A DNA stretch of 64,000 bases. Source: Sialis fuliginosa. Lineage: Eukaryota > Arthropoda > Insecta > Megaloptera > Sialidae. The notes under the pieces are model-generated. The model made no database searches and was not told the DNA's origin. It saw only the letters and a program-made list of their open reading frames with translations. Positions within the stretch are counted from its first letter, which is position 1. Each line of letters opens with the position of its first letter. Positions 1 to 34,010 of the stretch are shown piece after piece. The translations under genes and the position numbers were made by a program. Location of the stretch: the NCBI GenBank assembly GCA_961205875.1, contig OY540813.1, forward strand, positions 31,591,001 to 31,655,000. Reading direction: 5' to 3'.

Positions 1-61
1 ACTTAAGAAATAAATATTATGCTTAAATATTTCATACAAAATATTATCTAATTGATATATA

Positions 62-465
62 CAGTGATTCCAAGATGGTTAAGCCATAGGAAATTTAACA
101 TAGAGACAATTAGAAGTGTTGTAGTAGCCTTTGGTCAAATTTAACGATGTTGGTGCATTTTTGAAATGCCCTCACAAAATTTAATAAAATAGTAATTAGT
201 ATTGTGTTTTCAAATTTATATCTGTCAAAAAATATTATTATAATTTTATCTAGGATGCTTACTTTAATTTCATTAATGTATTTTATTCTTTATTAAAGTT
301 AAAAACAAAACACTGTTGATTAATTTAAAATTTATCAGTTAGTTTCGAGGCGGCATTTCAAAATGCACCAATCACACATCGTTCAATTTGACCAAAGGTT
401 ACTACAACATTTCTAATTGACCCCATGTTAAATTTCCTATGTCTTAATCAACTTGGAGTACACTG
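62..465. mobile_element. TA-flanked MITE with long inverted repeats
   Basis: The two ends are inverted copies of each other for about 115 bases, beginning CAGTG and running through 'CATAGGAAATTTAACAT' and 'TTTGGTCAAATT'. A TA dinucleotide lies directly outside each end (60-61 and 466-467), the target duplication expected of Tc1/mariner-type transposition. The interior is AT-rich and codes for nothing. It is therefore a non-autonomous element moved by a transposase encoded elsewhere. The arms differ at roughly one base in ten, so it is not a recent insertion. Confidence 0.8.
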
Positions 466-13699: not shown

Positions 13700-14290
13700 C
13701 TTTCGGTCAAAATCGCAAAATTTTTTATATATTGTAGTTAATGTGATGCTGATCAAAAACTCTCATAGACACAACTTCGAAAAATGAGCCATTTCGGCGA
13801 TAAAAATTTTTAAAGATGAAAAATTGAAATTAAAGTTTTATTTTCAGTTTTATTTGTTTAATGCTTTTTTCGCTATTTAAGTTTTTAACTAATAATAAAT
13901 AAACTTTATTTAAAATAACTTTATTTAATATCATATATGGATCTTGACTTCTGGGTGGAAATCGCATCAATTTGGTTTAAAAGTGCACTTTAGAAGAGCC
14001 CTGAAGATGTCCACTGCAATGTGTGACAAAAAGTTGACCGATAACACAACCATATTGACGCGACTTACACCCAGAAGCCAATATCACCATGGAAACCTCA
14101 AAATTAATATTGTAAACGATGAAAATAAATAGTAGTAATCGCTAAAAACTAAATTGTTATATTTATATAGATTTTAAATAAAAAAATTTTATCACCGAAA
14201 CGGCTCATTTTTCGAAGTTGTGCCTGTGAGAGCTTTTGATCAGTATCATAATATAAACTACAACATATCAAAAATTTTGCGATTTATGTC
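13700..14290. mobile_element. Foldback element enclosing a hammerhead-like hairpin
   Basis: The outer arms (around 13705-13815 and 14180-14290) are inverted copies containing 'TTCGAAAAATGAGCC' and its complement. Inside, 13935-14100 is a second, independent hairpin starting 'ATATGGATCTTGACTTCTGG', closely related to the free-standing hairpin at 32025-32150. The inner hairpin has thus been captured by, or is the core of, the outer foldback. The 62-codon plus frame across it is not considered a gene. Confidence 0.7.
13997..14036 (+). ncRNA. Degenerate hammerhead-like core (CTGAAGA half kept)
   Basis: CTGAAGA (14001-14007) fits the CUGANGA box of hammerhead ribozymes. It is followed by GTCCAC, the loop TGCAAT and GTGTGAC, which can pair as stem II with one bulge. 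The next bases should be GAAAC, but the sequence reads AAAAA, so cleavage is not expected. The related copy at 32076-32099 keeps GAAAC. Hammerheads of this kind are known from Penelope-like and other retroelements. The assignment rests on motif shape alone. Confidence 0.4.
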
Positions 14291-31754: not shown

Positions 31755-32020
31755 AAATATTTAATTCCGATATGTTATTTGCGCCAATGTTGGTACACTT
31801 TGATCCATCGTACAGGAAATTCAAGCGGTGTATTTTAAAAACCTATTAATTACAGCGGTCAATTGTTATGAAAATATTATTTTGTAAATAAAGTTAATTC
31901 CATATTTCTGCAAAATTCTTTTGTTTGTTATTTAAATTATTTTACATAAGTATAAAATTCATTCATCACACTAAATTTAATTATTAAGTATTAATATAAG
32001 TCTTGAGGCTTCCGCGGTGA
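31755..32020. other. AT-rich intergenic stretch
   Basis: Nothing recognised. Confidence 0.4.
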
Positions 32021-32021
32021 T

Positions 32022-32152
32022 CTTGATATGGATCTTGGTTTCTGGGTGTAAGCCGCGTCGATTTGGTCGTGTTATGTCCACTGCAATGCGCGACGAAACG
32101 TTGGCCGATAACACGACCAAATTACACCTAGAAGCTAAGATCCATACCAAGT
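32022..32152 (+). repeat. Hairpin repeat with hammerhead-like centre
   Basis: 'TATGGATCTTGGTTTCTGGG' and its inverted counterpart near 32128-32148, then the exact 13-base pair TTGGTCGTGTTAT / ATAACACGACCAA, form a long stem around a 30-base centre. The same unit occurs inside the foldback at 13.9-14.1 kb, showing it is a mobile repeat in its own right. It may come from a retroelement whose ends carry ribozymes. Confidence 0.65.
32076..32104 (+). ncRNA. Degenerate hammerhead-like core (GAAAC half kept)
   Basis: GTCCAC, loop TGCAAT, then GCGCGAC can form most of stem II, and GAAAC (32095-32099) follows at exactly the place the hammerhead core requires. The CTGAAGA box expected before GTCCAC is missing: the preceding bases GTGTTAT belong to the outer stem. 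The relative at 13997-14036 keeps CTGAAGA but has lost GAAAC. This copy should not cleave. Confidence 0.4.
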
Positions 32153-32154
32153 AT

Positions 32155-34010
32155 TAATAGACTTATTTTTTATACATACCTACATGAAATGTATGTAATA
32201 ATAAGCAAGGTATAATAGATAGAGTCTAAAGAAAACATTAAAAAATTCGAAATTTCAATGAAATTAAGGTCTCTGAATGTAGTAGTATGGCCATTATCTC
32301 AATAACATCTGTGTGTCTGTCAGTTTGTCTGTGAATAAAAAACCATTGTTGATTTAAAAATTACACTATCTACTCTAAAACTAAACAACATATTTTAATA
32401 CGGTAAAAACCATTTAATAGCAGGTTTATTCATAATTCTGATCTTGCCCAGCAAATTATAAAAGAAAACTTCAGAACTTTTTAAAACTACCAGATATGCC
32501 CCATTTTCGAGATAAATACATTGTAGTTGACATTTTCTACAATTTCCTATCAAAATGCAAATTTACAAAGATCAGTAATAACTGCACAATCATTTGATAC
32601 TGAAAATATTAAGTAGGTATTTATAAAACAGATTCAAAATATACGGGTTCAATGTCCAGCTATGCAAAAACCCGTTCTTCACTAATTCCACTGCACCTTA
32701 TTTATAATTTATATCTTGTCCATTTTTCCAGATTTCTTTTAAATATGATCAAATTTTTTAGATTATTTTTAAAACAGTTTGTAAAAGAAAGAAAATGTTT
32801 TAAATTAAATTTTTAATTAATATATTTGTATCTATAATACAAAAAATCCTTTTTTCACTAATATTTCGTATAATATTGTATGAAAGGTCTTGTGGTGGCC
32901 ACAGCAATTTATTTAAATTAATTGACAAATAAAAGAATGGTTCTATAATTTACTATAGGTAGTTAAAATGAAGTTTATAGTATAATATAAAACTAAATAA
33001 TATATTATTAATATTGTCGGTTATTTATATTTATACCAAAGTTAATAAATTTAAATATTTCAGTAAAAAAGCTACTTTCATTCCCGGAAAATTAGTTTTC
33101 AGTCAGAAGAATTAAATGCTTAATAATGACCACTAAATTTTATCATATATCATAAAATATAAACTAAATATTTATTCTAAAATACCATGCATAGTTAGTT
33201 TTCATCGTAGTTATTAAATAAATATTCGCATTTAATCCAGTTGTTGAATAATTTATCAAAAATTAAACTAACCCTAACGCAGATGAAAATATCGGTGCAA
33301 ATATAGAATTTAATCCTATTAATCTATTTCAGTCCAATGGAATTGTGATTTTTGCTTTTACATTTTACATGATAGCTATGTACTTTTTTATAATTGGGTT
33401 TTACATTCATCAATATTCATGCATTTCATAACATATTGAAAAAGTTTAAAGAAAAATTGCTGTGAGGGATATAATATGATTTCTATTTAAAAAATTGTCA
33501 TTCGAAAAATTATTATTATAATTATGAATTTTAGTTATATTAATTAAGTGTTGAATGCTTCCCTAACCCCATCTTTGGTAAAATAAAATTCCTTTCAACC
33601 GAAATTGAATAATTTTTATATTTCATAATACAATACATAATAAGTTAATATAATTAATAACAAATGTGGCGTAACTCCACTAATGTTTAAACTGAGATAT
33701 TAAAGAGTTTGCGTTTCAATAAAATTAAAAATATACGTGTACGATATCAATATGCCACATTGACTAAGTGTTTCTAAGAGAGTTAAATTTATAATTACTA
33801 TTAAAATAACCCCAATTATATTAAATGAATAATATGTGTTTTTTTACCACAAATGGAGTTAAGCCTCTTTCAAAATCAACAATTACATTTGTTATTAATT
33901 TAAAAGAACTCAACTCCATTTGTTGTTAGTTAAAATGCTTCAAATTAAAAAAAAACAAACATCTTTATTTTATATTATTTCTTTATAACTCTTAAAAAAT
34001 GGAGATTGTA
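32155..34010. other. AT-rich intergenic stretch
   Basis: No gene was recognised in about 1.85 kb. A possible short inverted pair, 'ACAAATGTGGCGTAACTCC' near 33660 and 'CAACTCCATTTGTTGTTAG' near 33910, may mark a decayed MITE. Everything else is low-complexity AT-rich DNA. Confidence 0.45.

Follow-up and report, generated by a model that had tools for sequence, protein, structure and literature searches.

Minimal type I (dimeric) hammerhead ribozymes have reportedly been described in Penelope-like elements (PLEs) by Cervera and de la Pena in 2014 and by Lunse, Weinberg and Breaker in 2017. In one account, PLE hammerheads usually have no non-conserved helix III letters and dimeric action is proposed (PMC7761336). 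Two PLEs are close enough for comparison. In PAc, the Poseidon element of Anolis carolinensis, stem II begins with the start codon, which C3 and G8 precede; the cut falls 26 nt into the ORF and reverse transcriptase (RT) starts 111–118 nt into it, a 30–40-bp tail lies between the two RT starts, and both target strands are cut and extended (PMC11167929). Penelope of Adineta vaga has inverted pLTRs arranged head to head with palindromes at the junction, an optional 31-bp tail on one inverted pLTR and target site duplications (TSDs) of 8–10 bp (PMC3846280). Animal non-LTR retrozymes are tandem repeats of 150–450 bp in which every unit carries a canonical type I hammerhead with loop contacts (PMC7229834).

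We analyzed a stretch of 64,000 nucleotides from Sialis fuliginosa (GCA_961205875.1, contig OY540813.1, positions 31,591,001 to 31,655,000 of the forward strand; hereafter, the window), in which an earlier note had pointed to two related hairpins that each keep a different half of a hammerhead core. Both are present where the note placed them and are 86% identical over 50 bp (arms, 87% over 45 bp). Copy 1 (13932–14103) retains CTGAAGA and stem II with a decayed GAAAC (AAAAAGTT in place of GAAACGTT within 14001–14035), and copy 2 (31997–32148) retains stem II followed by GAAAC (32076–32102) without CTGAAGA, just as they had been read. The box is gone from copy 2 because its sense arm begins at the ATG, from which we number arm positions (+/−). 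The pattern CTGAAGATGTCCACTGCAATG (14001–14021, copy 1) or GTCCACTGCAATGCGCGACGAAACG (32076–32100, copy 2) was matched at up to three mismatches in 0 of 100 shuffles, and GACAAAAAG in copy 1 occupies the place of GACGAAACG in copy 2. Both copies are head-to-head inverted repeats, with sense arms reading MSTAMCDKKLTDNTTILTRLTPRSQYHHGNLK... and MSTAMRDETLADNTT..., and their features are as follows.

13925..13931, plus strand: possible left TSD of copy 1 (TTAATAT), weak, a 7-bp direct repeat
13932..13980, minus strand: inverted arm of copy 1, short form, end near +87, by alignment
14001..14007, plus strand: CTGAAGA box (C3–A9) of copy 1, by the 14-copy alignment; the ATG begins with its last letter, 14007
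14007..14103, plus strand: sense arm of copy 1, from the ORF start MSTAMCDKKLTDNTT... to the tail end, with a 12-bp gap within the tail
14008, plus strand: single extra nucleotide (T) between A9 and stem II, copy 1
14009..14027, plus strand: stem II of copy 1, GTCCAC(TGCAAT)GTGtGAC, pair probabilities 0.99–1.0
14028..14035, plus strand: decayed 3' box of copy 1, AAAAAGTT (family form GAAACGTT)
14104..14110, plus strand: possible right TSD of copy 1, weak, a 7-bp direct repeat
31986..31996, plus strand: left TSD of copy 2, AAGTATTAATA, an exact 11-bp direct repeat
31997..32076, minus strand: inverted arm with tail of copy 2, +34 to +113
32074..32148, plus strand: sense arm of copy 2, ATG to about +85, with a 10-bp gap inside
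32076..32094, plus strand: stem II of copy 2, GTCCACTGCAATGCGCGAC, one A.C mismatch in the upper half
32095..32102, plus strand: GAA-ACGT-T box (GAAACGTT) of copy 2
32149..32159, plus strand: right TSD of copy 2, AAGTATTAATA, an exact 11-bp direct repeat

A direct repeat at least as long as that of copy 2 (11 bp) occurred in 6 of 5000 random placements; one of at least 7 bp occurred in 297 of 5000, which puts the repeat of copy 1 at chance level. The long stems that had been taken to flank the hammerhead are real, the TTGGTCGTGTTAT/ATAACACGACCAA stem folding at −69.5 kcal/mol (z −8.1), but they are arms of the insertion and not hammerhead stems. Judging by the letters, the family cut (GUU^G) is predicted to fall after 32102, where copy 2 should not be cleavable because CTGANGA is missing; both window copies should be dead as ribozymes, since copy 1 is without G12 and the ACGU letters and copy 2 without C3–G8. 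Copy 1 also sits between the 105-bp arms (13710–13811 and 14181–14285, 87% identical) of a larger inverted repeat, 13710–14285, whose midpoint lies within about 20 bp of its own. Long fold-back elements are common in the window, with 204 inverted-repeat pairs of at least 25 nt within 3 kb, many of them nested, 90–98% complementary and up to 404 nt long (for example 6828–7231/7334–7737, 46049–46352/46589–46892 and 56198–56543/58356–58701).

A hammerhead-core descriptor matched one full core in the window (29871) against a shuffle mean of 0.8, and the half-core GAAACGTH matched three times against a mean of 5.2. Taken alone, the descriptor is therefore at chance level in the window, not rarer, and the weight of the case comes from homology to a genome-wide family. 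No further copy in the window was detected with a profile built from the four arms (next matches, E 1.2 and 6.6), and Rfam reported no hammerhead in the window or in either copy. The window has 194 ORFs of at least 55 aa, and the 61 of them compared with Pfam showed neither RT nor GIY-YIG. The absence of any Rfam Hammerhead_1 match in the genome is uninformative, because 14 control genomes were equally silent. Sub-threshold matches to microRNA precursors were dismissed, since any long hairpin yields them.

No relatives turned up when viral and bacterial collections were scanned with exact patterns. Looser patterns gave seven matches there, six of which lacked a complete hammerhead by eye; the seventh is a phage motif, found on the plus strand at 322, 1176, 1747 and 2350 of L007 and at 1044 and 3107 of L009. 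It has CCGATGA instead of CTGANGA (U4 to C) in seven of eight instances and CTGAAGA in one. The same two sequences are common to L009 and L010, and L008 matches the looser pattern and not the stricter one. One instance scores 11.6 bits with Rfam Hammerhead_1 (cut-off 34), and none was found in L007. Related phage hammerheads with core changes are published (PMC3088659).

To define the family, we searched the window's own assembly (392 Mb, 20 contigs) with 31990–32160 as query and scored 40 of 1808 first-look candidates, which gave at least 83 matches in total. The resulting first set comprised 30 retrieved loci, one of which is copy 2, together with copy 1. All 31 copies are arranged head to head; the outer end of one arm lies at +105..113 in 30 copies and that of the other at +79..88 in 28 (this arm is shorter in L023, L033 and L036), a uniform shape that was partly selected because these copies are the best matches to a query shaped like copy 2. 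The blast reference stops at +113, and the actual sequences seem to extend a few bases beyond; for copy 1 the arm ends in this count are not true ends, because the match halts at its gap. Direct repeats of at least 11 bp flank 12 of the 31 copies versus 0 of 620 control placements, and those of at least 9 bp flank 15 versus 7 of 620. They range from 6 to 18 bp, and nine copies have none of 6 bp or more. The centre junctions vary among nearly all copies, L013 and L014 being the same.

A second query held both boxes and did not require a second arm. Of 1119 candidates 40 were scored, giving at least 58 matches in total, and 20 copies were retrieved from these 40 places. An inverted arm was detectable in 15, and none in L076, L080, L086, L088 and L089. 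Twelve of the 15 two-armed copies end at +104..112 and +80..86 (exceptions, L074, L075 and L092), although some arm ends may be cut because the stretches are only 251–341 bp long.

Both CTGANGA and GAAACGT are present within one copy in 20 of 20 second-set copies, which, as the query held both boxes, shows their co-occurrence and not its frequency. The layout reads AGAGCC-CTGAAGA-U-GUCCAC(UGCAAU)GUGuGAC-GAA-ACGU-U^GG, and the 53-nt majority sequence of 14 copies, picked for a sense arm that reaches the box, is GAAGAGCCCTGAAGATGTCCACTGCAATGTGTGACGAAACGTTGGCCGATAAC, again with both boxes. The ancestral repeat with CUGANGA, stem II and GAAAC that the two half-cores had implied is thus borne out. 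The three basal pairs of stem II are kept in 19 of 20 copies, stem I has three pairs in 10, two in 9 and one in a single copy, and GAA-ACGT-T occurs in all 20 (the T as read from the sequences after GAAACGT). The predicted core consists of stem I GCC/GGC, C3–A9, an extra U, stem II, G12 A13 A14, ACGU and H17 = U, with the cut at GUU^G. Since ACGU is self-complementary, stem III would form between two copies. Read in this way, as the dimeric ACGU of PLE hammerheads, stem III allows a GUU cleavage triplet to be placed. The earlier note had named a consensus lacking one box, or a core that no pairing could bring opposite a cleavage triplet, as what would speak against it; neither holds, because the boxes co-occur and the triplet can be placed.

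By its letters, the layout matches published minimal PLE hammerheads, with a helix III made of self-complementary ACGU and a start codon overlapping the core. As described in PMC7761336, these share with the window family CUGANGA, stem II, GAAA, a helix III of conserved letters and a proposed tandem or dimeric action. The window family appears to differ from them in its extra unpaired nucleotide after A9, and its motif lies in a unit of about 140 nt that occurs as head-to-head palindromes.

PLEs with both RT and GIY-YIG domains exist in the window's genome. A GIY-YIG search returned two matches, L041, which looks like a host SLX1-type gene, and L042, with RVT_1 (1.1e-10) and GIY-YIG (1.9e-6). 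L042 appears 5'-truncated, and about 590 nt past its frame it reads GTTA-CTGAAGA-A-GTC(TGTAGTAT)GAC-GAA-ACGT-A-TAA, the layout of the window family with a different, pairing stem I. Searching the genome with the RT piece of L042 gave at least 120 matches (120 of 489 candidates scored), many of them within open frames about 900 codons long. Of the neighboring matches up to 8 kb apart, 48 are in tandem (mostly 3.56 kb apart), 23 head to head and 6 tail to tail. Full PLE units with long open frames, such as L052 and L068, form tandem arrays of about 3.56 kb that often flip head to head at one point. Hammerhead cores of these tandem-array PLEs have GAAAA... in place of GAAACGT, and L052 has a self-complementary AAAATAGCTATTTT at the expected place of stem III.

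In 30 retrieved PLE loci we counted 47 hammerhead-core matches versus 3 in 600 shuffled loci, with both strands scanned and overlapping loci kept for the former and one strand for the latter. Stem II of these cores is GAATG(TT)/(AA)CATTC, GACA/TGTT or GGAAT(G)/(T)ATTCC, all three of which pair. The single extra nucleotide after A9 is present in 47 of 47, unpaired, and is A or T. ACGT after GAA was found in none of the 47 cores of these other PLE families, and a full CTGANGA..GAAACGT with at most one mismatch occurs among the 30 loci only in L044, which is the place of L042. The motif of the window family itself was found in 0 of the 30, and no parent autonomous element was found among them.

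Our data suggest that the two window hairpins are most probably dead insertions derived from a PLE 3' region, made by RT starts at two sites after both target strands had been cut. The inserted unit would comprise a leader of about 26 nt, a minimal hammerhead over the start codon and the first 84–113 nt of the frame, which in the parent PLE would start MSTAMCDETLADNTT. The PLE endonuclease would cut both strands of the target, and RT would start inside the RNA at two places, close to +113 on one side and to +84 on the other. Each cDNA would extend toward the RNA 5' end, stopping early or at about −26, and the two would then be joined head to head at variable points, giving a palindrome whose long stems would be copies of the 3' region, one arm to about +84 and the other to about +113. 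Two-sided, target-primed reverse transcription from two sites, on an RNA with its 5' end near −26, would account for arms that are inverted and have two different ends, for the TSDs, for junctions that vary and for the absence of a longer leader. With its predicted cut at GUU^G, 29 nt past the frame start, the hammerhead may act as a dimer on tandem transcripts, a step taken from the literature. Several points count against this reading: the parent is missing among the 30 PLE loci, pairs within the family show no compensatory change, 9 of 31 copies have no direct repeat of 6 bp or more, 5 of 20 second-set copies are without a second arm and 3 of the other 15 depart from the two ends, ACGT follows GAA in none of the 47 cores of other PLE families, stem I is full in only 10 of 20, and the first set was selected in part for its shape. 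We do not claim that the ribozyme cut halted the cDNAs; of the 30 long arms, 14 end at +34..38, but the query shares that shape, the cut lies at +29/30 and only 1 of 15 second arms in the second set stops at +34..38.

The earlier note had mentioned hammerheads of both PLEs and small retrozymes. The family looks PLE-derived and, as PMC11167929 describes PAc, it resembles that element in having a start codon at stem II, with the cut 29 nt into the frame here and 26 nt in PAc. The likeness extends to a pair of internal RT starts separated by a tail, predicted at about +113 and +84 here and placed 111–118 nt into the ORF in PAc, and to the probable use of both target strands. In contrast, PAc is complete and its protein is known, whereas the parent of the window family was not found, and the PAc start site is described as the same on both strands, whereas the arms here mostly end differently. 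Likewise, Adineta vaga Penelope, so far as described in PMC3846280, shares head-to-head ends, a tail on one side and TSDs, but in that species an ORF usually lies within and self-priming has been proposed, and here only the hammerhead and the ORF start are present. Retrozymes are similarly short units with type I hammerheads, and PLEs are proposed as their helpers (PMC7229834); unlike them, the window family consists of single head-to-head units with a minimal core, and on that account it is not a retrozyme.

As for the template, 44 arms extend to the CTGANGA box, but only 4 of them match the reference past −26, either through the GTGCAC palindrome at the junction or through a few letters. Ten arms extend to GCACTTTTAG, and the 20 nt preceding it have no sequence in common among them (on average 5.6 of 20 positions identical, at most 11). 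From these sequences, the template seems to begin near −26. As there is no common leader past about that point, the template would have been either the short end of an RNA or a unit some 140 nt long. Both observations, as well as the 0 of 30 PLE loci with the family motif, favor a SINE-like unit, complete in itself and about 140 nt long, that would be transcribed from about −26 and mobilized by PLEs in trans, palindromes being its normal form of insertion. We hold this possible, though somewhat short of an even chance, since the unit contains an in-frame ORF start, which a PLE messenger should have at its 5' end, and since a full PLE transcribed from −26, with RT starting at the first and not the second start-codon region, would yield identical products. 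Equally tentative is our proposal that a non-autonomous RNA of about 140 nt, carrying a PLE hammerhead and an RT-landing region, spreads as head-to-head palindromes through RT starts at two fixed sites on two cut strands.

Alternatively, the boxes could have been kept only as an ORF start and RT landing site, in an RNA that is not a ribozyme. An ATG and a frame overlap the core, the stem pairs within the family show decay and no compensation (no two-sided change, with shuffles equal or better), stem I is just 3 bp long and incomplete in half of the 20 copies, and a single extra nucleotide follows A9. We nevertheless regard this explanation as unlikely, because CTGANGA-N-stem II-GAA is retained in other PLE families of this genome with a different, pairing stem II, and CTGAAGA..GAAACGT is retained in L042 with a stem I that has changed and still pairs. 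Insertions of a MITE or of a fold-back DNA transposon with hammerhead-like letters by chance would also be short, repeated, palindromic and flanked by direct repeats, but such an origin is very improbable given direct repeats of 6 to 18 bp, two different outer arm ends, copy-specific centre junctions and a second arm absent in 5 of 20 second-set copies.

The reading we prefer, insertions of a PLE 3' region by two-sided reverse transcription, draws on a ribozyme class and a PLE anatomy that are already known; the short, two-ended palindromic unit may be the new part. Our literature search, which covered part of the literature including PMC12910113, found no description of short PLE palindromes. 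Both the integration mode of Penelope and the function of its hammerhead are still unsettled in print. The role of the PLE hammerhead is called a mystery in PMC7761336, and in PMC11167929 PAc cleavage is seen solely with protein added, with no reads at the cut site. In the family described here, many tiny insertions keep their RT-start ends, their junction and often a TSD, and so provide independent events to read, and the intact copies are material for assays. If the proposed non-autonomous RNA of about 140 nt does spread in this form, its palindromes would preserve in nature the intermediate through which Penelope integrates from two sides, and their ends would let the role of the PLE hammerhead be tested.
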